This document shows, piece after piece, positions 21,785 through 32,933 of a stretch of DNA of 42,821 nucleotides. The position numbers and the translations under genes are program-made. The stretch comes from Marinobacterium profundum. GTDB taxonomy: Bacteria > Pseudomonadota > Gammaproteobacteria > Pseudomonadales > Balneatricaceae. How positions within the stretch are numbered: position 1 is the stretch's first letter; each line of letters starts with the position of its first letter. The notes beneath the pieces are model-generated. The model saw only the letters and a program-made list of their open reading frames with translations, searched no databases and was not told the origin of the DNA. The stretch covers positions 1 to 42,821 of the forward strand of contig NZ_BCNS01000101.1 in the NCBI RefSeq assembly GCF_001528745.1, written 5' to 3'.

Positions 21785-21817
21785 CACACTTGAACCCATA
21801 TGCTAGTAAGGCGATAA

Positions 21818-21846
21818 ATTATACGCCCTGTGCCGGCGCGCTTGTA
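21818..21846 (-). promoter_or_regulatory. rpiA promoter
   Basis: A perfect TATAAT lies at 21823-21818 on the minus strand. The -35 17 bases upstream (TACAAG) is weak. The predicted start leaves a leader of about 27 bases before the ATG at 21784, which supports that start codon over 21799. Confidence 0.5.
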
Positions 21847-21871
21847 GACGAAAGCGGTGCCAGCTTATACC
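21842..21871 (+). promoter_or_regulatory. Possible ilvA promoter
   Basis: TTGTAG at 21842-21847 and TATACC at 21866-21871, separated by 18 bases, overlap the -35 of the divergent rpiA promoter. No leader peptide or attenuator rich in branched-chain codons is visible before ilvA. Confidence 0.3.
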
Positions 21872-21933
21872 ATTTCCTGCTCTTTGCGGCCGCGACCTGC
21901 GCCGCCAGACCTAACTTATGGCACTGCATCCCC

Positions 21934-23451
21934 ATGGCTCATCGATATATCAAGAAGATTTTGGAGGCGCGTGTCTATGACGTAGCCATCGAGACCCCAC
22001 TGGATTATGCCCGCAGCCTGTCTGAACGGCTGGACAACCGGGTGCTCCTCAAACGTGAAGACCTGCAACCGGTGTTCTCGTTCAAGCTGCGTGGCGCCTA
22101 TAACAAGATGGCTCAGCTCAGCGCCGCGGAAAAGGCCAAGGGCGTGGTTACCGCATCGGCCGGCAACCACGCTCAGGGGCTGGCCTATTCGGCCCGCCAC
22201 ATGAGCGTCAAGGCGACCATCGTCATGCCCAAGACCACACCGGACATCAAAGTCAGCAACGTCAAGGCACTGGGCGGCAAGGTCATACTGCACGGCGATA
22301 CATTTGAGGAAGCCAAGACCTACGCCGAGCGACTGGTCGAAGAAAAGGGTCTGGTCTATGTACCGCCCTACGATGATCCCGATGTCATTGCCGGCCAGGG
22401 CACCATTGGCATGGAGCTGCTGCACCAGGAAAGCGGCCCCATTGATGCCGTTTTCGTCCCCGTGGGTGGAGGCGGACTGATCGCCGGTATCGCGGTCTAC
22501 ATCAAATACCTGCGCCCCGACGTCAAGGTAATAGGCGTCGAGTCCGAGGATTCCGCCTGCCTGCACGCAGCCCTGGCTGCGGATGAGCGGGTCAAGCTGT
22601 CACAGGTTGGCATCTTCGCCGAAGGCGTGGCCGTGGCCCAGATAGGCCAGCACACCTTTGATCTGGCGCGACAGTATGTCGATGAAGTCATCACCGTCAC
22701 CACCGACGAGATCTGCGCGGCCATCAAGGATATCTTCGATGACACCCGCTCGATCTGCGAGCCGTCCGGCGCCCTGGGCGTGGCGGGTCTGAAGAAATAT
22801 GTGGCGCGCGAACAGTGCAGCGAGCGCACCCTGATTGCCATCGACTCCGGCGCCAACGTCAACTTCGACCGCCTGCGTCATATCGCCGAACGCTCTGAAG
22901 TCGGCGAAAAACGCGAAGCCATCATTGCCGCCCGCATACCGGAACGTCCCGGCAGCTTTCGCAAGTTCTGCGCGGCACTGGGCAAGCGCAACATCACCGA
23001 GTTCAACTACCGCTACAGCGACGACAAGGAAGCCATCGTCTTTGCCGGCATCCAGACCAGCCCCCAGGGCCCGGGGCGCGCCGCCCTGCTGAGTGAACTG
23101 CGGGAACACCTCGACGAAGTCATAGATCTGACCGACAACGAGATGGCCAAGCTGCATATCCGCTATATGGTCGGCGGCCACGCACCTGCAGCCGTAAACA
23201 ATGAAGTGGTATTTCGTTTCGAGTTTCCGGAACGCCCAGGGGCGCTGATGAAGTTCCTCAGCAAGCTAGGCGGACGCTGGAACATATCCATGTTCCATTA
23301 CCGCAACCACGGCGCAGCCTACGGGCGCGTACTGGTGGGCATGCAGGTTCCCGCCGAGGAACATGAGCAGGTCAAAGCTTTCCTGACAGAGATCGGCTAC
23401 AACTTCTGGGATGAAACCGACAACACCGCCTACCGTCTGTTCCTCGGCTAG
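21934..23451 (+). CDS. ilvA: Biosynthetic threonine dehydratase IlvA
   Basis: The 505-residue product from the ATG at 21934 compares with 514 in E. coli. The PLP-dependent catalytic domain covers about 1-320 with Lys51 in SFKLRGAYN, ASAGNHAQGLAYSA and the phosphate-binding glycines VGGGGLIAGIA. Two ACT-like regulatory repeats follow, starting near REAIIAARIPERPGSF and VVFRFEFPERPGAL, which mark the isoleucine-inhibited biosynthetic form rather than the short catabolic TdcB. It deaminates threonine to 2-oxobutanoate, the first step of isoleucine synthesis. A longer reading from 21790 adds 48 residues that do not match the family and overlaps the rpiA start region. Confidence 0.96.
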   Translation: MAHRYIKKILEARVYDVAIETPLDYARSLSERLDNRVLLKREDLQPVFSFKLRGAYNKMAQLSAAEKAKGVVTASAGNHAQGLAYSARHMSVKATIVMPKTTPDIKVSNVKALGGKVILHGDTFEEAKTYAERLVEEKGLVYVPPYDDPDVIAGQGTIGMELLHQESGPIDAVFVPVGGGGLIAGIAVYIKYLRPDVKVIGVESEDSACLHAALAADERVKLSQVGIFAEGVAVAQIGQHTFDLARQYVDEVITVTTDEICAAIKDIFDDTRSICEPSGALGVAGLKKYVAREQCSERTLIAIDSGANVNFDRLRHIAERSEVGEKREAIIAARIPERPGSFRKFCAALGKRNITEFNYRYSDDKEAIVFAGIQTSPQGPGRAALLSELREHLDEVIDLTDNEMAKLHIRYMVGGHAPAAVNNEVVFRFEFPERPGALMKFLSKLGGRWNISMFHYRNHGAAYGRVLVGMQVPAEEHEQVKAFLTEIGYNFWDETDNTAYRLFLG

Positions 23452-23468
23452 CAATATTTGCCGGCCAC

Positions 23469-23506
23469 AAAAAAGCCCCGAAGGTGCAAACCGTCGGGGC
23501 TTTTTT
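23469..23506. terminator. Bidirectional terminator between ilvA and the first phasin gene
   Basis: An A run, GCCCCGA, a 12-base loop, TCGGGGC and six T form a strong hairpin, 17 bases past the ilvA stop and 18 bases past the phasin stop on the other strand. Confidence 0.93.
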
Positions 23507-23524
23507 ACAGGCTAATGGCAGCCC

Positions 23525-23821
23525 TTATTTAACCAGTTTAGCGGTGGCCGCTTCGCTTGCTTTGGTGGCCAGGCCGGAGAAGGCTTCGCCCTGGGCCTTG
23601 AGCAGTTCAAACAGCGCCTTGCTCGAATCCATATTGAAAGTCACCAGATCCTGCGGAGTCTTCAGCGTCTTGGCCTTGTCGGCATTGGCTTTGAAGAAAG
23701 CGGCCAGTTCTTCGCCGCTTTTTTTCTGCAGTTCAATCGACTGGCTGATGGTGCTGGTCTGGAGTTCAACCAGAGACTGCACGGTTTCAAAAGCGGTCTT
23801 GATAGTCGCGTTGGTGCTCAT
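23525..23821 (-). CDS. Phasin family protein, copy A
   Basis: The 98-residue product is small, alpha-helical, Ala/Lys-rich and lacks cysteine and tryptophan, as is typical of granule-coating phasins. The segments GEELAAFFK and ALFELLKAQGEAF are shared almost exactly with the paralogue at 24118-24423, and the two align without gaps through most of their length. Phasins cover polyhydroxyalkanoate granules and control their size and number. No PHA synthase gene is in the window. The gene has its own promoter with two palindromic operators (see 23844-23915) and a shared terminator with ilvA. A regulatory role other than PHA binding cannot be excluded. Confidence 0.88.
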   Translation of the reverse strand: MSTNATIKTAFETVQSLVELQTSTISQSIELQKKSGEELAAFFKANADKAKTLKTPQDLVTFNMDSSKALFELLKAQGEAFSGLATKASEAATAKLVK

Positions 23822-23843
23822 GATGTCATTCCTCTTCAGTTAA

Positions 23844-23860
23844 ATTGTGCACTGCACAAT
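23844..23860. promoter_or_regulatory. Palindromic operator at the transcription start of phasin A
   Basis: ATTGTGCA-C-TGCACAAT is a perfect 17-base palindrome. It begins right at the predicted transcription start, centred 31 bases before the start codon. It is one of four related sites in this region. The TGC/GCA symmetry resembles sites reported for PHA regulators of the PhaR type. Confidence 0.85.
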
Positions 23861-23867
23861 AATGCTG

Positions 23868-23895
23868 ATTATACCCATCCGGATACGCCTGACAA
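23868..23895 (-). promoter_or_regulatory. Phasin A promoter
   Basis: On the minus strand TTGTCA (23895-23890) and a perfect TATAAT (23873-23868) are separated by 16 bases. The promoter is framed by the palindromes at 23844-23860 and 23901-23915. Confidence 0.85.
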
Positions 23896-23900
23896 CTAAT

Positions 23901-23915
23901 TTGTGCACTGCACAA
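23901..23915. promoter_or_regulatory. Upstream palindromic operator of phasin A
   Basis: TTGTGCA-C-TGCACAA is a perfect 15-base palindrome just upstream of the -35 element, 56 bases centre-to-centre from the site at 23844-23860. Confidence 0.83.
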
Positions 23916-24011
23916 TAAATAATAATCAGGCCTGTTTCGCGCTGCCTGCGGTCACCCTTAGACGGCCAGGTATAGGCGCCGGCCAGCGCCCCAAATCCGG
24001 ACCTCAGACGC

Positions 24012-24048
24012 AAAAAGGCCCCGCAGATTTTCATCTTAGGGGCCTTTC
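24012..24048 (-). terminator. Terminator of phasin B
   Basis: AAAGGCCCC and GGGGCCTTT pair, with an inner AGAT/ATCT stem. Read on the minus strand the hairpin ends in TTTTT, about 70 bases past the phasin B stop. Confidence 0.85.
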
Positions 24049-24117
24049 TGTGTGCGGCTTGTCGGACTCGGCCCGGCAGCAATGCTGCGAGACAGGATCA
24101 GACCACAACCAGTCGAC

Positions 24118-24423
24118 TTACTTGGACAGCTTGCTGAACTCGGAAGCAGCAGCGTCACGAGCTTCATTAGCGATAGCGGTGAAAGCTTCGCCCTGGCCTT
24201 TCAGCAGCTCGAACAGAGCAGCGTTGGTATCGACATTGAACTTGATCAGGTCTTCAGGTGATTTCAGCTCTTTGGCTTTTTCAACTTCAACCTTGAAGAA
24301 GGCTGCCAGCTCTTCGCCGGTTTTCTTCTGCTGTTCAACAGATTTGGTGATAGCAGCAACCTGGATGTTCATCAGAGTCTGCATAGCTTCAAAAGGCTTC
24401 TGGAAATCTACGGAATTAGTCAT
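24118..24423 (-). CDS. Phasin family protein, copy B
   Basis: The 101-residue product from the ATG at 24423 (GGGAGAG upstream) is a paralogue of the 98-residue protein at 23525-23821. Conserved blocks include EQQKKTGEELAAFFK, a PEDLIKFNVDTNAALFELLK stretch and GQGEAFTAIANEA. A 13-residue upstream reading would translate part of the operator and is rejected. The promoter and the two palindromes upstream repeat the layout of copy A almost base for base in spacing, so gene and control region were probably duplicated together. The likely function is PHA granule coating. Confidence 0.89.
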   Translation of the reverse strand: MTNSVDFQKPFEAMQTLMNIQVAAITKSVEQQKKTGEELAAFFKVEVEKAKELKSPEDLIKFNVDTNAALFELLKGQGEAFTAIANEARDAAASEFSKLSK

Positions 24424-24447
24424 CACTTCTCTCCCAAGTTCAAGTTG

Positions 24448-24462
24448 TTGTGCACCGCACAA
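24448..24462. promoter_or_regulatory. Palindromic operator at the transcription start of phasin B
   Basis: TTGTGCA-C-CGCACAA is the same palindrome with one mismatch. It is centred 32 bases before the start codon, matching the 31-base distance at phasin A. Confidence 0.82.
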
Positions 24463-24470
24463 TTAAGCTG

Positions 24471-24498
24471 ATTATAGAGCGAATGCCGACAGGATCAA
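24471..24498 (-). promoter_or_regulatory. Phasin B promoter
   Basis: On the minus strand TTGATC (24498-24493), a 16-base spacer and a perfect TATAAT (24476-24471) repeat the phasin A promoter; the TATAATCAGC string is identical in both. Confidence 0.83.
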
Positions 24499-24504
24499 GC
24501 ACTT

Positions 24505-24523
24505 TTTTGTGCAGTGCACAAAA
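24505..24523. promoter_or_regulatory. Upstream palindromic operator of phasin B
   Basis: TTTTGTGCA-G-TGCACAAAA is a perfect 19-base palindrome, the longest of the four, centred 59 bases from the site at 24448-24462 and just upstream of the -35. Confidence 0.85.
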
Positions 24524-25313: not shown

Positions 25314-26930
25314 TTACTTGGTAATAAGCTCCGGCCCCATGATGCTGTACGGCAGGAAGGTGGACAGCCAGGGGATGTAAGTCACCAGAATCAGGAACAC
25401 GAACAGCACCGCCACGAACGGCATGGCTGCTTTGACGACCTGCGCCAGACTCATGCCGGTAATGCCCGAGGTCACGAACAGGTTGAGCCCTATGGGCGGC
25501 GTGATCATGCCGATCTCCATGTTTACTACCATGATGATGCCCAGGTGAATCGGGTCCACACCCAGCGCCATAGCGATCGGGAATACCACGGGGGCCACAA
25601 TAACCAGCAGGCCTGAAGGCTCCATGAACTGGCCACCAATCAACAGCAGCACGTTAACCGCTATCAGGAAGGTAAACCAGTTGAACCCGGCGCCCAGCAT
25701 CCACTCGGTCACCATCTGCGGAATCCGCTCAGACGACAGCGTATGGGCAAACAGCAAGGCGTTGGCGATGATAAACATCAGCATCACGGTAGTCTTGGTG
25801 CCGTCGAGGATTACCTTGCGACTTTCGCCTCCCAGCATGGCCGGGAAAAAGCAGCGCCCGACTGCCACCAGGTTGCGACTCCAGACCGGCAGACCTGACC
25901 CCAGACAGCGCAGCATGGAGGCATCCAGATCTTTGCCTCGCTTGTATATGTAGAACAGGGCAATCACCAGACTCATGCCCAGACCCCAGGCCGCTCGTTC
26001 ACCAACGCTGGTTGTTTCGCTCTGCGCGGTGGCAAAGAACGACATGATCATCCAGACCAGAAAGAATGAGACGCCATAGACACTGCCGTTAAAGCCCACC
26101 CGGGCTATGGCAGAATCCGTTTCTGCCACCCAGGGTATGCCCTTAAGCGGCCCCATGTCACGGTACACAAAGAGTGCAATCAGCATGGAGTAAACCGCTG
26201 CCACCACCGCCGCTTCCGTCGGTGTAAAGACGCCGCCATAAATGCCGCCCATGATGATTACGATCAGGAACAGGCCCCAACCCGCTTCCTTGCCGCCGCT
26301 CACTATATTGCCAAAACCCTTCCAGGGCTCAGCCGGCAAATTCTTGATGCGTGCCACCACATAGATGGCCAGCATTAGCATGAAGCCTGCCAGCAAACCC
26401 GGAATCACGCCCGCCAGGAACATGCGACCGACCGACACATCGGTAGCGGCGGAATAGACCACCATGACGATGGACGGTGGAATCAGGATGCCCAGGGTAC
26501 CGGCGTTGGCGATGATACCGGAGGCAAATTCCTTGGAGTATCCCACCTGGCGCATGCCGGCGATGGCAATGCTGCCGATAGCCACCACCGTGGCCGGCGA
26601 GGAGCCGGACAGCGCAGCAAACATCATGCACGCCAGTACCGACGCCATGGCCAGACCACCGCGAAAATGCCCCACACCGGCAATCGCAAAATTGATCAGG
26701 CGCTTGGCCACCCCGCCCGTCGACATAAAGGCCGACGCCAGGATAAAGAACGGAATCGCCAGCAGAGTGTAATGCTGGCCGACACCGAACAGCGATATCG
26801 CCACAGAGGACAGCGAATCGGCGGATATAAAGGTGATATACAGGATTGAAGACAACCCCAGGGATATACCGACGGGCAGGCCCAGAAATAGCAGGACCAG
26901 CACCATCACAAACAGAATTATTGCATCCAC
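25314..26930 (-). CDS. dctM: TRAP transporter large permease DctM with an inserted segment
   Basis: The 538-residue protein carries the sodium-dependent transport core of a TRAP carrier. Typical DctM sequences include FFILASAFMSTGG, ALSGSSPATVVAIGSIAIAGM, GILIPPSIVMVVY, GGVFTPTEAA, and GMITPPIGLNLFV. Usual DctM proteins have about 425-430 residues. The extra length lies between about 259 and 355, after GGVFTPTEAAVVAAVYSML, and holds two more hydrophobic spans (about 280-303 and 311-332). The reading frame is intact, so this looks like a natural subfamily trait rather than damage. The start is a GTG with GGAG upstream, 16 bases after dctQ. It completes dctPQM for uptake of C4-dicarboxylates such as succinate, malate or fumarate. 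Confidence 0.93.
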   Translation of the reverse strand: MDAIILFVMVLVLLFLGLPVGISLGLSSILYITFISADSLSSVAISLFGVGQHYTLLAIPFFILASAFMSTGGVAKRLINFAIAGVGHFRGGLAMASVLACMMFAALSGSSPATVVAIGSIAIAGMRQVGYSKEFASGIIANAGTLGILIPPSIVMVVYSAATDVSVGRMFLAGVIPGLLAGFMLMLAIYVVARIKNLPAEPWKGFGNIVSGGKEAGWGLFLIVIIMGGIYGGVFTPTEAAVVAAVYSMLIALFVYRDMGPLKGIPWVAETDSAIARVGFNGSVYGVSFFLVWMIMSFFATAQSETTSVGERAAWGLGMSLVIALFYIYKRGKDLDASMLRCLGSGLPVWSRNLVAVGRCFFPAMLGGESRKVILDGTKTTVMLMFIIANALLFAHTLSSERIPQMVTEWMLGAGFNWFTFLIAVNVLLLIGGQFMEPSGLLVIVAPVVFPIAMALGVDPIHLGIIMVVNMEIGMITPPIGLNLFVTSGITGMSLAQVVKAAMPFVAVLFVFLILVTYIPWLSTFLPYSIMGPELITK

Positions 26931-26946
26931 AGCAGGCTCCCCGCTC

Positions 26947-27636
26947 TCAGTCTTTTAATATGTTCAGGTTTTCTTCGACCAGATCCTTAGCTTCATGCCC
27001 GCTGATAAGCATGGGGCGCTTGTCCTGCCAGATATCAATGAACGCCTGCAGTGAGCGGTAAACCAGCAGCGCCAGGCTGATGGGCAATATGAGCAGCACC
27101 AGCCAGCGGTGTACACGCGGCTGCAAGCCAAAGGTTTCCTGCATGAATTCGGGGTACCGCAGTTCTTCCACGCCTATGCCGATCTTGTACATCTTGGCCC
27201 AGTACTCAATGGCCCCGCCGCGTACATCAACACCGAGCATTGCCAGCCAGGTGGAGTCGAGCAGGATCAGGCCGTACATCAGGGTTGCAAAGGCTCCAAA
27301 TAGCGACAGCGCCTTGCACAACTTGTGTGGTACCGCATTGAGCAAGATATCCACGCCCAGGTGAATACCGGTTTTAATGCCATAACTCATACCCAGCAGA
27401 ATCAGCCAGGAAAACGCCAGGGTGTTGAACTCAAGCGCGGCAGACCAACCGGTGTTGAAACCGTAACGCGCAATCACCTGCCCAAAAGACACCAGCATGA
27501 TGGAGCTGATCACCAGCACCAGCAGGTTTTCTTCGGCCTTGGCCATCGCGGTGGGAAACAGCTTCTCCAAAATCCAGAGGATAATGATGAAGACCAGTAG
27601 ATATAAGTGCGGCCAGTAGTCCATAGGAGACACCAT
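26947..27636 (-). CDS. dctQ: TRAP transporter small permease DctQ
   Basis: The 229-residue membrane protein has TM segments near 8-27, 37-56, 70-88, 104-130 and 174-196, with the family motif region FNTLAFSWLILLGMSYGIKTGIHLGVD. It is longer than usual (about 160-200) because of a loop of roughly 45 residues between the last spans (GGAIEYWAKMYKIG...). DctQ assembles with DctM and positions the binding protein. A second ATG at 27624 is an alternative start. It lies between dctP and dctM, 154 bases after dctP, with stable hairpins in that gap. Confidence 0.93.
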   Translation of the reverse strand: MVSPMDYWPHLYLLVFIIILWILEKLFPTAMAKAEENLLVLVISSIMLVSFGQVIARYGFNTGWSAALEFNTLAFSWLILLGMSYGIKTGIHLGVDILLNAVPHKLCKALSLFGAFATLMYGLILLDSTWLAMLGVDVRGGAIEYWAKMYKIGIGVEELRYPEFMQETFGLQPRVHRWLVLLILPISLALLVYRSLQAFIDIWQDKRPMLISGHEAKDLVEENLNILKD

Positions 27637-27732
27637 TCAGGAATCAGGCCGTGGCCAGCCTGGAACAAATTAAAGGAAATAACTTGATGGCAACGACAGC
27701 ACAGGACTATCGCTAACCGGGGTGAGCGGGCC

Positions 27733-27783
27733 CAGGCCAGAACGGCCTGAGCCCATGCCCGGCATCAGTCGCTGATGCCGGGC
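27733..27783 (-). promoter_or_regulatory. Tandem hairpins between dctP and dctQ
   Basis: A perfect 12-pair stem, GCCCGGCATCAG and CTGATGCCGGGC with a 3-base loop (27757-27783), lies 7 bases past the dctP stop. A second stem, CAGGCC/GGCCTG (27733-27749), follows. Neither has a T tract, so they probably stabilise the dctP part of the message or give partial termination rather than full stop. Confidence 0.8.
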
Positions 27784-27790
27784 GCAACCA

Positions 27791-28780
27791 TCAGGAACCG
27801 GCTGCGGTTTTGATCAGATCGGCACCGATTTCGCCTTCGAACTGATCCCACACAGGCTTCATGGTATCAACCCACTTCTGACGCTGAGCATCATCCAGGG
27901 TGTTGATCTTGCCTTTGGCCTCCAGGATGTTGGCACGGTTGGCAGCTTCCGCCGCCTTCACTTCTTCGTTGGCCGCCTGAGTTACTTCATCAGCAATGGC
28001 CAGGAACTGCTCGCGCGCTTCAGGTGTGAGACTGTCCAGAAACTCGGTCGATGTCATGAACAGGTAAGCCAGCAACTGATGGTTGGTTTCGGTCACGCTG
28101 TCCTGCACTTCGAAGAATTTCTGAGTGTAGATGTTGGACCAGGTATTTTCCTGACCATCCACCACGCCGGTCTGCAAAGCGCCATAGACTTCTGCAAACG
28201 CCATTGGCTGCGGCGAAGCGCCCATGGCCTCGATCATGGCCTTGGCCACATCTGAGGTCTGTACCCGGAATTTCATGCCCTTTGCATCAGATGGCGCGAT
28301 CAGGGGCTTGTTGGCCGAAAAGTATTTCATGCCGGACATCCAGTATCCCAGACCGACAAAACCAACATCTTGCATTTCGTTCAGCAGACCCTTGCCGGCA
28401 TCAGACTTGGTGAAACGAATAGCTGCATCCATGTCCTTGAAGATGAACGGCAGATCAAAGACGCCATATTTGGAGCTGTAGGAACCAAACTTGGACAGGG
28501 AAGGCGCCAGAATCTGCACGTCACCCAGTAGCAAAGCTTCAAGTTCCTTGCTGTCGCCAAACAGGGTGGAGTTCGGGAACACCTCAACACAGAGCACGCC
28601 ATTCATTTCTTCGTTGACGCGCTGGGCAAAATTATTGGCTGCAACCACCTTGGGGTGGGTTGTTCCGCCGGTCACATGGCTCAGCTTGGCGACGATCTCA
28701 CCGCTCTCGCAGGAGGCGAACGCCGTAGTGGCAGAGATGGACAGCGCAAGAGCAGAAAGGGCCAGAGTGAGTTTTTTCAT
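27791..28780 (-). CDS. dctP: C4-dicarboxylate TRAP binding protein DctP
   Basis: The 329-residue product from the ATG at 28780 has a signal peptide of about 22 residues (MKKLTL..., cleavage near TAFAS). Family segments include VEVFPNSTLFGDSKELEALLLGDVQI, GLGYWMSGMKYFSANKP, MKFRVQTSDVAKAM with the conserved substrate-binding Arg, FAEVYGALQTGVVDGQENTWSNIY and a C-terminal FEGEIGADLIK ending like Pseudomonas DctP. It captures dicarboxylates in the periplasm and hands them to DctQM. Upstream lie a sigma-54 promoter and activator-like sites, and the adjacent dctB-dctD pair is the expected control system. A longer in-frame reading through the leader is rejected. Confidence 0.96.
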   Translation of the reverse strand: MKKLTLALSALALSISATTAFASCESGEIVAKLSHVTGGTTHPKVVAANNFAQRVNEEMNGVLCVEVFPNSTLFGDSKELEALLLGDVQILAPSLSKFGSYSSKYGVFDLPFIFKDMDAAIRFTKSDAGKGLLNEMQDVGFVGLGYWMSGMKYFSANKPLIAPSDAKGMKFRVQTSDVAKAMIEAMGASPQPMAFAEVYGALQTGVVDGQENTWSNIYTQKFFEVQDSVTETNHQLLAYLFMTSTEFLDSLTPEAREQFLAIADEVTQAANEEVKAAEAANRANILEAKGKINTLDDAQRQKWVDTMKPVWDQFEGEIGADLIKTAAGS

Positions 28781-28866
28781 ATTATTGTATCTCCATAGAG
28801 GTCTGTACTTATGAGCTGCAAGCCAACCGCGGCAAGCGCCCACCGGAACGTGCAACACATATAGAC

Positions 28867-28884
28867 AAGCACAGGACGTGCCAA
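28867..28884 (-). promoter_or_regulatory. Sigma-54 promoter of dctPQM
   Basis: On the minus strand TTGGCACG-TCCT-GTGCTT gives the required GG at -24 and GC at -12 with exactly ten bases between, close to the consensus TGGCACG-N4-TTGC. The predicted start near 28857 leaves a leader of about 77 bases. Confidence 0.88.
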
Positions 28885-28968
28885 CAATATAAAAACCCAG
28901 CATAAGCAAGGCCGGCAGCGCTCATAAGCTCTGTTTATGGTAGCAGTGAAATAAAAAAACAGCGGGAA

Positions 28969-28986
28969 ATGACGGAAATTCACCCA
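28969..28986. promoter_or_regulatory. Second candidate DctD binding site
   Basis: The stretch around CGGAAATTC matches about 12 of 18 positions of the rhizobial DctD upstream activator consensus as I recall it (TGTGCGGAAATCCGCACA). It is centred 33 bases, about three helical turns, from the better site at 29002-29019. Confidence 0.4.
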
Positions 28987-29001
28987 TAAAAACAATAACA
29001 A

Positions 29002-29019
29002 TGTGCGGATAACCACCCA
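29002..29019. promoter_or_regulatory. Candidate DctD upstream activator site
   Basis: TGTGCGG-ATAA-CCACCCA has a perfect left half-site and a 5 of 7 right half-site of the DctD dyad. It lies about 150 bases upstream of the predicted sigma-54 transcription start, a normal distance for an enhancer-binding protein. Confidence 0.6.
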
Positions 29020-29204
29020 TTTTCGATAGGGCTGGGCCCCAGCGCCACTCAGACGAGAAAAAGGAGGGAATAAACCGAAAATCACCGTTGGCGAAGCCTG
29101 GCTAATACCACTGCGGCCATTGCAGCCGCCATTACGACACTGCGTCGCTCGCCAAACCGGTGTTTAAGACACTGAAAGCAAGGGATCGGACGGGAGACAT
29201 GGCG

Positions 29205-29230
29205 GGCTTGGGCGGTTTTCCGCCCAAGCC
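29205..29230. repeat. Perfect inverted repeat just past dctD
   Basis: GGCTTGGGCGG and CCGCCCAAGCC with a TTTT loop form an 11-pair stem, 17 bases past the dctD stop. No T tract follows on either strand, so it may stabilise the 3' end or act as a weak terminator. Confidence 0.7.
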
Positions 29231-29247
29231 TGACTCAGGCAGCCAAC

Positions 29248-30621
29248 TTACTTGAAATCACTCTTGTCCAGGCCGTACTTTTTCATCTTGTCATAGAGTG
29301 TTTTGCGCGGCAGGCCCAGAAACTCGAGGGTGTCCCGAATAGAACCACCGGTACGCGACAGTGCCGCCTGAATCAGCATTTTTTCAAAACGCTCTACCTG
29401 ATCCGGCAACGACAGGGTAGCGCCGCCATCGTTGTCGATAATCAGGCGGTTATCAAAATCAAAGCTGCCGGACTCTCCCAGCAGCACATAACGTTCGGCC
29501 AGGTTGCGCAATTCGCGCACATTGCCGGGCCAGTCGTGCAACATCAGGCTGTGCAGGCGCTCGGCCGAGAGCGTCGGTATCTCGCGGTTGTACTGCGCCG
29601 AGGCCACCAGTGCAAAATGCTGGAACAGCAGGCCTATATCCTCGCGCCGCTCACGCAGCGGCGGTATATCGAGCCGCACCACGTTGAGCCGGTAGTACAA
29701 ATCTTCACGAAACTCGCCTCTGGCCGCCAGCGTCTTGAGGTCGGTCTTGGTGGCCGCGATCACGCGCAGATTCAGCGCTATGACTTCATTGGACCCCAGG
29801 CGCTCAATGGCGCGTTCTTCCAGCACCCGCAACAGCTTGATCTGCAGCGCCAGCGGCATGCTCTCAATCTCGTCGAGGAACAGGGTGCCGCCATTGGCAT
29901 GCTCAAACTTGCCGATACGTCTTGTGCGCGCATCGGTAAAAGCGCCCTTTTCGTGCCCAAAGAGCTCGGACTCGATCAGACTTTCCGGCACGGCGCCGCA
30001 GTTGATCGCGACAAAATTATGATCACGCCGTCCGCTGTGTTCATGGATATAGCGTGCCATCAAATCCTTGCCGGCACCTGTTTCCGCCTGAATCAGGATA
30101 TCCGCCGGCGCATCCGCAATGCTGTGCAGCAGGCGCCGCAGCTGGGTTACCGCCGGTGCATTGCCGAGCAGGCGCGGCCCAGGTGCACTCTGGGCTTCAA
30201 GCTCCAGTTTGAGACGCCGGTTTTCAATGGTCAGGGCGCGCTTTTCCATGGCCCGGCGCACCACATCGAGCAACAAATCCGCTGCAAAGGGCTTTTCGAT
30301 AAAGTCGTAGGCTCCGGCGCGCATGGCGGAGACCGCCATGGAAATATCACCGTGGCCGGTAATAAGGATCATCGGCAGGTCGGCATCAATGGCGCGTACC
30401 CGCTCCAGCAGTTCTAGCCCATCCATGCCGGGCATGTTGATATCGGAGATCAGTACCCCGTTCCAGTCGTCACTGAGCAGTTCCAGCACCCGCTCGCCCC
30501 GCTCCAGCGTCGTTACATCGTAACCGGCCAATTCCAGCGTCTGGCCCGCCGCCAGACGAATATGCTTCTCGTCATCGACCAGGATAATGGGGCGACAGGC
30601 CAGGTTCTTGTTCATCGACAT
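29248..30621 (-). CDS. dctD: C4-dicarboxylate response regulator DctD (sigma-54 activator)
   Basis: The product is about 457 residues from the ATG at 30621 (ATG 30615 is equally possible; an upstream TTG is less likely). The N-terminal receiver has acidic VDDE and Asp60 in SDINMPGMDG with Lys110 in EKP. The AAA+ domain has Walker A AETGAGKD near 179-186, ELFGHEKGAFTDA and GGTLFLDEI. A Fis-type helix-turn-helix (GGSIRDTLEFLGLPRKTLYDKMKKYG) ends the protein. The sigma-54 contact loop reads GAFTDA rather than the usual GAFTGA. It lies 38 bases after dctB and upstream of dctPQM, whose promoter is of the sigma-54 type, so the circuit is complete in the window. Confidence 0.95.
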   Translation of the reverse strand: MSMNKNLACRPIILVDDEKHIRLAAGQTLELAGYDVTTLERGERVLELLSDDWNGVLISDINMPGMDGLELLERVRAIDADLPMILITGHGDISMAVSAMRAGAYDFIEKPFAADLLLDVVRRAMEKRALTIENRRLKLELEAQSAPGPRLLGNAPAVTQLRRLLHSIADAPADILIQAETGAGKDLMARYIHEHSGRRDHNFVAINCGAVPESLIESELFGHEKGAFTDARTRRIGKFEHANGGTLFLDEIESMPLALQIKLLRVLEERAIERLGSNEVIALNLRVIAATKTDLKTLAARGEFREDLYYRLNVVRLDIPPLRERREDIGLLFQHFALVASAQYNREIPTLSAERLHSLMLHDWPGNVRELRNLAERYVLLGESGSFDFDNRLIIDNDGGATLSLPDQVERFEKMLIQAALSRTGGSIRDTLEFLGLPRKTLYDKMKKYGLDKSDFK

Positions 30622-30659
30622 AGGCAAATGGGTTCACTCAATATCAGGGCCCAAGCGGG

Positions 30660-32933
30660 CTATTCGGTGATCGTGGGTTGAGGTACCAGCCGCAGCTCCA
30701 GCGTAAAACAGGCACCGCCATCGGGATGGTTGCTGGCACGCAGACAGCCGCCCAGGCTTTCGATAATGCGATGGGATATCGACAACCCCAACCCAAGCCC
30801 CTGGCCGGCCTTCTTGGTGGTAAAGAATGGTTCGAACAGGTGCTCCAGATACTCCGGAGATATACCGGGACCTGAGTCCCGCACGCTCAGTTGCACCGTA
30901 TCATCACTGCACTCAAGGCCGATGTCGATGCGCCCTGCGGGCTGATCTTCCAGTGCCTGCATCGCATTGCCGATCAAATTCACCAGCACCTGCTCGAGAC
31001 GCAGGATATCACCCAGCACATAGATATGTTCAAGCCCTGCCTGCCAGTGAATGCTTACTGACTGTCGATCCAGCTGACCATAGAGAATCGACATGGCACC
31101 ATCACGAACCGCCTTGAGGCACACCGGTTCCGGCGCCCCGCTGCTGACCCGGGCAAACTCCTTCAGCGGGTGAATGATCTTGGCCATGCGTTCAGTGAGC
31201 TGCGATATTTCTTCCAGATTGGCCAGGGCACGCTCAGGGCGCTCCCGCTCCAGAAAGACACGGCCATTGTCGGCATAACTGCGAATGGCGGTCAGGGGCT
31301 GGTTCAGTTCATGGTTGATACCGGCTGACATCTGACCCAGCACTGCCAGCTTGGCAGTCTGGATCAGCTCGTTCTGGGTTTGCTGATGCTGGGTCATTTC
31401 CTGCTGCAAGCGCGCATTGGCCAGGGTGAGATCCTGGGTCCGTTGCTCCACCCGGCTTTCAAGCAACAGCTGCGCACGCTGCAGCTGCGTTTCCTGCTGC
31501 TTGCGCTCGGTAATATCGTGAATCGTCACTATAAAGTGCCGCTCACCATTGGCCGCCATGCGCCCGATGGTGAGCTCAATAGGAAACAGCGTCTGATCTG
31601 CACGCAACGCCGCCGCCTCTATATGCAGCTCCCGCGTGCCATCATCGGCTTCAGTGGTAATGTGCTGCCAGCACACAGCCCTGTCGGGATGCGCCAGCAG
31701 CTTGCTGAAATACTCGCCGCGGATGTCGTCTTCACGGTAGTGGAACAGCTTTTCTGCGGTCGGATTGCAGGATTCAACACGGCCCTGACCATCGAGCGTA
31801 ATCAGCCCGGCCTGGGTATTGTCGATAATGGCGCGAATACGGGCGTCATTTTCTTCCAGCGCATGCAGTTCACGCTGGCGAAACAGTGCCCGTTCCTGCG
31901 TGATACGGTTACGCGCCAGCACGAACAGCACCAGCAACAGCAAGGCACAATAGATAATGGCTGTCAGCAACAGGGCGCGGAACACTCTCTGCTCCACGGG
32001 CTTCATGCTCGCCAGCACCGCCACACTGAGTCCGCTATTGGGCACCGGGCTGTTCTGCAGCAGATAATGTCGCGTACGCACGCCATCCAGGCTCGGATTA
32101 TCCTGCCGCGAACCCTCCACCAGCGTAATCAGCTGACTGCCATCCGGGCCCTTGTCACGCCAGAGGATATCCAGCGATGTCAGCTCCTGGGCACCGTAAC
32201 GCAGGCTGTCGACGATGCGATACAGGTCCGGCTGAGTTAGCGGCCTGAGGGTGCGGAACTTCCAGTCCGGCCGGGTGGAGATCACGATAATGCCGTCTTC
32301 GTCGGTCACCAGGATATCCAGCAGAGGATCGTTCCAGTCACCTTCTATATCATTGAGGTCAATTTTGACGGCGATAACGCCGGTGACTTTGCCCCCAATG
32401 CGCACAGGATAGGAATAGAAATAGCCGCGTTTTTTCGAGGTAGTGCCCAGCGCAAAGTAACGCCCGGCATGACCCGCCATCCCCTGCTGGTAATAAGGCC
32501 TGAAGGAAAAGTTCTGGCCAATAAAGGTACGCTCCTGCGCCCAGTTGCTGGCGGCGATGGTTTCCCCCGCCGCATTCATCAGATAGGCATCGGTGGTGCC
32601 TATGGTCGTGTTGACCTGTTCGAGATAGAGGTTGGCGCGCATGCGCGCATCGGCGTCACTCTGATGCAGCAGCGCATTCAGCAACTCCGAATGCGACGCC
32701 AGCAATTGGGGCAGATCCTTGTAGCGATCCAGCTTCTGTTGCAGGCTCAGGGTATAGCGATTCATGTCTGCGGCACTGCGCAGTTTAACGTCCTGCATCG
32801 CCTGCTGGCGCACCAGCACAGACACCTGTGCCATCAGAAACAGGAACAGCAGCAACAGCAGTATTACCGCCACCGGACGCTGGGCCCGTACAGGTGATAT
32901 CGAAGTCAGGGAAGCTCGTTGAGTATCATTCAT
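30660..32933 (-). CDS. dctB: C4-dicarboxylate sensor histidine kinase DctB with an extra PAS domain
   Basis: The 757-residue inner-membrane kinase has TM1 about 19-41, a double-Cache periplasmic sensor (about 45-315) with NFSFRPYYQQ and KKRGYFYSYPV segments typical of DctB, and TM2 about 318-340. A cytoplasmic PAS domain (about 362-475) and a coiled coil to about 525 follow. HisKA carries His541 in SAGINHELNQPLTAI, and the HATPase has N652/N656, DSGPG and GQGLGLGLS. Typical DctB proteins are about 600 residues and lack the PAS domain, so this copy may sense a second, internal signal. The gene is first of a dctB-dctD pair directly beside the transporter it should control. Confidence 0.95.
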   Translation of the reverse strand: MNDTQRASLTSISPVRAQRPVAVILLLLLFLFLMAQVSVLVRQQAMQDVKLRSAADMNRYTLSLQQKLDRYKDLPQLLASHSELLNALLHQSDADARMRANLYLEQVNTTIGTTDAYLMNAAGETIAASNWAQERTFIGQNFSFRPYYQQGMAGHAGRYFALGTTSKKRGYFYSYPVRIGGKVTGVIAVKIDLNDIEGDWNDPLLDILVTDEDGIIVISTRPDWKFRTLRPLTQPDLYRIVDSLRYGAQELTSLDILWRDKGPDGSQLITLVEGSRQDNPSLDGVRTRHYLLQNSPVPNSGLSVAVLASMKPVEQRVFRALLLTAIIYCALLLLVLFVLARNRITQERALFRQRELHALEENDARIRAIIDNTQAGLITLDGQGRVESCNPTAEKLFHYREDDIRGEYFSKLLAHPDRAVCWQHITTEADDGTRELHIEAAALRADQTLFPIELTIGRMAANGERHFIVTIHDITERKQQETQLQRAQLLLESRVEQRTQDLTLANARLQQEMTQHQQTQNELIQTAKLAVLGQMSAGINHELNQPLTAIRSYADNGRVFLERERPERALANLEEISQLTERMAKIIHPLKEFARVSSGAPEPVCLKAVRDGAMSILYGQLDRQSVSIHWQAGLEHIYVLGDILRLEQVLVNLIGNAMQALEDQPAGRIDIGLECSDDTVQLSVRDSGPGISPEYLEHLFEPFFTTKKAGQGLGLGLSISHRIIESLGGCLRASNHPDGGACFTLELRLVPQPTITE

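Follow-up and report, generated by a model that had tools for sequence, protein, structure and literature searches.

Two neighbouring phasin-like genes of Marinobacterium profundum, located on the minus strand of a 42,821-nucleotide stretch of DNA that was analysed as a whole (hereafter the window), are each preceded by a promoter-like sequence lying between two copies of a short palindrome. This locus raises the question of which regulator would recognise the four palindromes, and of what a pair of sites at each promoter would do. An original prediction, made from the letters of the window, had pointed to a PhaR-type regulator, had suggested that a repressor binds both sites and loops or clamps the promoter, and had considered the paired arrangement unusual.

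Contrary to that last view, published descriptions place paired PhaR sites at phasin promoters of R. eutropha (phaP1) and S. meliloti (phaP1 and phaP2). At phaP1 of R. eutropha H16, footprints by Potter and others are reported to define one PhaR site (BS1) directly upstream of the -35 element and a second one (BS2) around the start point, and the deduced PhaR motif is given as YTKNTGCRNYGCANMAR (PMC12849132). In S. meliloti, phaP1 and phaP2 are each described as carrying two palindromes for PhaR (AniA) that flank the -35 element; Table 3 of that report includes TTATTGTGCACTGCACAAATT at phaP1, which was efficiently bound by PhaR, removal or mutation of the palindromes abolished the shift, either copy alone sufficed in gel shifts, and a PhaR motif with weak binding is given for panC (PMC12542648). 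Further, the PhaR homologue of H. seropedicae, PhbF, is reported to have the probable motif TG[N]TGC[N]3GCAA and to repress phaP1 in E. coli lacZ fusions (PMC3206438).

Results

Paired palindromes at two phasin-like genes

The features of the locus, in the order in which they are read on the minus strand, are the following:

24507-24521, no strand assigned: distal PhaR-type palindrome of gene 1, TTGTGCAGTGCACAA
24498 to 24471, minus strand: sigma-70-like promoter of gene 1, TTGATC-16-TATAAT, 10 of 12 consensus bases
24448-24462, no strand assigned: proximal PhaR-type palindrome of gene 1, at the inferred start point, TTGTGCACCGCACAA, one mismatch to TTGTGCANTGCACAA
24118..24423, minus strand: phasin-like gene 1, 101 aa, starting MTNSVDFQKPFEAMQ; homology to relatives, no Pfam match of its own
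24012-24049, minus strand: hairpin 3' of gene 1, likely terminator, -22.1 kcal/mol, z -5.5, with an inner mismatch
23901-23915, no strand assigned: distal PhaR-type palindrome of gene 2, TTGTGCACTGCACAA
23895 to 23868, minus strand: sigma-70-like promoter of gene 2, TTGTCA-16-TATAAT, 11 of 12 consensus bases
23845-23859, no strand assigned: proximal PhaR-type palindrome of gene 2, at the inferred start point, TTGTGCACTGCACAA, the same 15-mer as the distal copy
23525..23821, minus strand: phasin-like gene 2, 98 aa, starting MSTNATIKTAFETVQ; Pfam Phasin_2 E 6e-5, 23.6 bits, cut-off 24.9
23468-23507, minus strand: hairpin 3' of gene 2, likely terminator, -24.6 kcal/mol, z -6.6, with an inner mismatch

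The elements named in the original prediction, namely two phasin genes and two promoters with 16-base spacers and TATAAT boxes between palindromes, are all present, and its distances were reproduced: the 15-base sites that frame each promoter are separated, centre to centre, by 59 bases at gene 1 and 56 at gene 2, and the proximal centres (24455 and 23852) lie 32 and 31 bases before the A of the ATG codons at 24423 and 23821. The site positions and geometry also held, with three amendments: both genes are read from the minus strand, the last site ends at 24521 instead of 24523, and the site at 24448 has one mismatch. Transcription start points were inferred from the position of the -10 element, and the proximal palindromes lie at these predicted points. 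Promoter-like matches in the region amounted to 3, against 0.8 expected.

All four sites are dyads built on a TGC-N3-GCA core, with a single spacer base at the centre. Over the whole window, matches to the palindrome with up to three mismatches numbered 6, against 2.8 expected, and 4 of 100 shuffles reached 6; this excess is weak on its own, but the four sites at the phasin-like genes have zero or one mismatch. In R. eutropha phaP1 a third, in-frame site has been predicted, whereas here the matches found inside both phasin frames, with two or three mismatches, were no better than the window background (18 matches with up to two mismatches on the scanned strand).

The proteins encoded by genes 1 and 2 are 50% identical to each other, and relatives of gene 1 (77-97% identical) were found in 5 of the 6 other genomes of the genus. 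A Pfam profile search gave no phasin match for the protein of gene 1, while that of gene 2 fell just under the curated Phasin_2 cut-off; at E 0.001, Phasin_2 was reached by 8 of 31 aligned family members, both window proteins counted. The naming of both as putative phasins draws on weak profile matches together with homology.

As a strong hairpin follows each gene, the twin genes are read as independent units that each comprise a promoter, an operator pair and a terminator. A simple terminator scan of the region called neither hairpin, both of which have an inner mismatch, and the one following gene 2 is possibly shared with a convergent frame at 21790-23451 on the plus strand, named threonine-dehydratase-like from its translation alone. 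Elsewhere in the window, at 25314-32933 on the minus strand, the translations suggest three TRAP-transporter-like frames (large, small and solute-binding parts) and two frames resembling a two-component pair of the DctD/DctB type.

In a phasin tree, from which four rows (L037, L041, L046 and L058) similar to retained ones were omitted, the two copies of the genus formed two distinct groups (support 98/96 and 90/84), so that the duplication seems to be older than the species of the genus. Two to three tandem copies also occur in other genera, in genomes G020 and G045 (genus g15, which holds an Amphritea record) and G012 (genus g7), and a separate pair of sites, exact or nearly so, accompanies each of these copies. 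A single old duplication for the short-spacing phasins of the genus of the window and of g15, tested as one clade, was neither rejected (p-AU 0.29) nor demonstrated, for a group that was named after an earlier tree had been seen.

PhaR and its co-occurrence with paired sites

The genome encodes one PhaR (PF07879, E 4.6e-27; TIGR01848, 136.8 bits against an equivalog cut-off of 109.45), whose gene is convergent with class III phaC-phaE; phaE scored under the NCBIfam cut-off and over that of Pfam. A PDB search with PhaR returned just a chance-level match to talin (E 0.077). Within the 3.2 kb around phaR (L011), no site with up to three mismatches to TTGTGCANTGCACAA was found, unlike the situation in H. 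seropedicae, where phbF is described with an operator of its own, and in R. eutropha, for which self-regulation of phaR has been reported.

Exact site pairs were detected in 45 of the 116 genomes of the family, corresponding to 45 of the 91 with PhaR and none of the 25 without it (Fisher p 9e-7). Of 293 genomes sampled evenly across the order, 14 had pairs, and every one of these 14 belongs to the 47 that encode PhaR (Fisher p 1e-12). These p values overstate independence, because the genomes share ancestry. Exact pairs were absent from 46 of the 91 PhaR-bearing genomes of the family and from 33 of the 47 in the order sample, under a strict pattern by which genomes with degenerate sites count as negative and which allowed spacings of 40-70 bases, so that closer pairs such as those of S. 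meliloti would not be found. Within the genus, genome G004 has PhaR and the patatin-gene site described below, with no phasin match and no site pair.

Loci were fetched for 30 of the 45 pair-bearing family genomes, and in 27 of them a phasin-like frame lies immediately downstream of the pair (the exceptions being L047, L048 and L059). A scan of GTDB species genomes yielded at least 118 stretches with exact pairs. Those listed are mostly alpha-, beta- and gammaproteobacterial, a breadth that likewise speaks against the pairing being unusual, and they include single bins labelled Clostridia and Deltaproteobacteria. According to local models, a phasin-like frame follows directly in 98 of the 118 listed stretches, a count that leans towards phasins since the models were seeded from members of the same set and iterated; free of that bias, Pfam Phasin_2 matched 92 of 137 candidate downstream frames in these stretches. 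No phasin-like frame was found downstream in the other 20 of the 118, and some of the frame-less pairs (3 of 30 in the family, 20 of 118 in the GTDB stretches listed) are due to a cut frame or the wrong strand. A phaR open frame falls inside 6 of the 118 listed stretches, and in all six it lies 9-66 bases from the pair; these belong to Marinobacter nauticus, a Litoricola bin, Leeia oryzae and three gammaproteobacterial records. In one Chromatiales bin (L143:4882-4960), a third palindrome-like copy, TTGTGCATTGCAACA, is located between the two outer ones.

Geometry of the paired sites

Family geometry was taken from the 30 fetched loci (L033-L062), considering frames that start within 60 bases; of 41 distinct pairs, 5 weak ones were set aside and 36 promoter-bearing pairs were counted. 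The promoter spacer is usually 17 bases long, one more than here. In the family it was unusually constant, at 16 bases in 35 of the 36 pairs, the exception being a non-phasin locus with 19 bases (L059), and this length was not built in, as the promoter scoring favoured 17. The distal centre was located 13-17 bases before the -35 element in all 36 pairs, and the proximal centre 20-26 bases past the first base of the -10 element, mostly 21-23.

Over the wider collection, 132 of 166 distinct pairs were kept and grouped in 57 clusters; symmetric pairs contribute both of their orientations to the 166, pairs lacking a frame of at least 60 aa in the 250 bases downstream (e.g., L083, L108, L128, L162 and L184) were excluded here and from the family set, and the kept pairs still include a few in the wrong orientation or at non-phasin genes. 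The distal offset was 12-17 bases before the -35 element in 53 clusters, the other 4 having 26-29. The proximal offset, in contrast, ranged from 4 to 31 and looks lineage-typical in these sequences. In sphingomonad stretches (among L071-L188) it was mostly 9-11, the palindrome thereby overlapping the -10 box and perhaps blocking the promoter in another manner; the offset was 17-18 in Burkholderiales and 28-31 in three Kiloniellales or Rhodospirillales bins, and in one other Kiloniellaceae bin the proximal site was called at 17 and the distal one at 29. Total spacings occupied 22 of the 25 values between 45 and 69.

Distribution of the palindrome in the genome and further candidate targets

The original prediction had suggested scanning the complete genome with one mismatch allowed, and had taken many copies at unrelated genes as evidence against it. 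Instead, TTGTGCANTGCACAA with up to one mismatch occurs at 6 places in the 5,637,742-base genome, and four of these are the phasin sites, all within 680 bases. The fifth (G000:C159:26300-26314; L004:1501-1515) lies upstream of a patatin-like gene, 20 bases from its ATG, and the sixth, with one mismatch, is upstream of a Gcw_chp (porin-like) gene. Allowing up to two mismatches, 19 places were found over the whole genome, against 4 for a reversed-pattern control. The centre-relaxed pattern TTGTGCRNYGCACAA added two one-mismatch places, namely L216, which falls within a reading frame, and L215, in the interval that separates panP from metH, giving 8 in total.

A perfect palindrome directly precedes the start of the patatin-like gene in all seven genomes of the genus (also L207, L208, L210-L212 and L214), the identity of the gene being based on Pfam for two genomes and on translated starts for the remaining ones. 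This hydrolase gene is a likely additional PhaR target in the genus, as judged from site conservation, and among the titles listed by a literature search on patatin none concerned PhaR control of such a gene. Between the divergent panP and metH genes, a near-palindrome, ATGTGCACCGCACAA (G000:C124:121340-121354; L215 and L231-L234), was found in five of the seven genomes. It lies on the panP side of the interval and closes a conserved block of about 50 bases, with TATTAT immediately before it and variable bases around the block. Given the weak PhaR site reported at panC of S. meliloti, PhaR may also touch coenzyme A supply here, through panP, an enzyme gene of the pantothenate/coenzyme A route. 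Two of the seven genomes, G006 and G003, additionally have a perfect palindrome ahead of the gene for a CBS-domain protein (L209:1648-1662 and L213:1660-1674).

Discussion

The four palindromes are, with high probability, PhaR operators, through which a PHB-binding repressor (PHB_acc_N/PHB_acc) would control both phasin promoters and from which it would be released by PHB; the binding, repression and PHB response of the PhaR of this organism are what we infer from its relatives. The sites themselves, the presence of a phaR gene, the co-occurrence of both across genomes and the published relatives all support the PhaR-type regulator that the original prediction had in mind for these genes. The locus resembles R. 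eutropha phaP1 in having one site just upstream of the -35 element and one at the start point (here inferred), and in sharing the dyad core YTKNTGCRNYGCANMAR, which there accompanies repression by PhaR and release by PHB; it differs in that its palindromes are near perfect and that a pair is present at both neighbouring phasin-like genes. Like phaP1 and phaP2 as described for S. meliloti, there are two phasin genes with two palindromes each at the promoter, and the PhaR-bound phaP1 site given in that report contains the 15-mer of gene 2, TTGTGCACTGCACAA, letter for letter; the sites of S. meliloti, however, flank the -35 element at 18 and 28 bases apart, whereas here they are 56 and 59 bases apart and frame the whole promoter.

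Following the proposed mechanism, in the absence of polymer PhaR would occupy both sites of each phasin promoter, behind the -35 element and at the start point, and RNA polymerase would be excluded by steric hindrance, with the two bound PhaR units probably aiding each other. Once PHB is made, PhaR would move onto the granule surface and both promoters would open; the phasins thus produced would cover the granules, and free PhaR would then shut the genes again.

Regarding the identity of the bound protein, another regulator, such as the TetR-type PHA regulator named as an alternative in the original prediction, is very improbable: the same 15-mer lies within a site reported to be bound by PhaR in S. 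meliloti, site pairs are confined to PhaR genomes in both the family and the order samples, and six pairs adjoin phaR. The regulator acting at the four palindromes is almost certainly PhaR, as far as these comparisons go. That the palindromes are chance occurrences, or hairpins formed in the RNA, is scarcely credible and is largely refuted by conservation. Chance is countered by the recurrence of exact pairs in 45 of the 116 genomes of the family, with a phasin-like frame downstream in 27 of the 30 whose loci were fetched; the proximal palindrome would indeed sit at the extreme 5' end of the mRNA, as a hairpin reading would have it, but the distal copy falls beyond the predicted transcript, and at gene 1 the folding of the proximal copy does not exceed that of shuffled sequences (z -0.23).

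How the two operators of a promoter cooperate is a related matter, for which the suggestion of looping or clamping, with PhaR bridging both sites as a tetramer or as two associated dimers and with both sites and their helical phase being relevant, appears possible though rather unlikely. It draws on reports that the PhaR-type proteins of H. seropedicae (PMC3206438) and P. denitrificans are tetramers in solution, that two-site fragments of R. eutropha phaP3 are shifted by PhaR at a lower concentration than single sites, and that the authors of the latter study compared the phaP1 arrangement with the main and auxiliary operators of LacI (PMC12849132). Furthermore, the spacings of the 57 clusters cluster at a period of 10.5 bases (R 0.42, p 0.0006 when compared with a uniform range); the same statistic gave p 0.053 against permuted promoter parts, however, and the periodogram is broad, with its peak at 11 rather than 10.5. 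Spacings within the same genome (55/60, 56/59, 57/60 and 56/58/60) differ by 2-5 bases and hence correspond to different helix faces, and both the close spacing of the S. meliloti pairs and the sufficiency of a single copy for gel-shift binding, as reported there, also argue against a required bridge. We therefore read the arrangement as promoter occlusion by PhaR with possible cooperation between sites, and with a hint of phasing at most.

The most interesting residue of this analysis is the constant distal offset in combination with a lineage-shifted proximal site. A conjecture that we hold to be improbable, although worth stating, is that of an old module common to the proteobacteria, with a fixed distal site and a lineage-placed proximal one, in which PhaR would touch RNA polymerase and the loop size would be tuned by lineage; if true, PhaR at the distal site would do more than help the operator at the start site.

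The paired architecture is ordinary, as such an arrangement has already been described at phasin genes elsewhere, yet it is neatly conserved; the motif, the pairing and the idea of cooperation between sites are all known already, and little surprise is expected for a PHB specialist. Among the papers listed by a literature search, judged by titles and the openings of abstracts, none dealt with PhaR operators in Marinobacterium or Marinobacter-type gammaproteobacteria. The operators of M. profundum are very clean, with four of the six genome places contained in 0.7 kb, which makes them suited to testing the role of the second site and looping versus occupancy. Further targets are suggested for the genus, namely the patatin-like hydrolase and possibly panP. 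By sequence, these results would extend the PhaR-phasin circuit to gammaproteobacteria of the Marinobacterium type that carry a class III PHA synthase.
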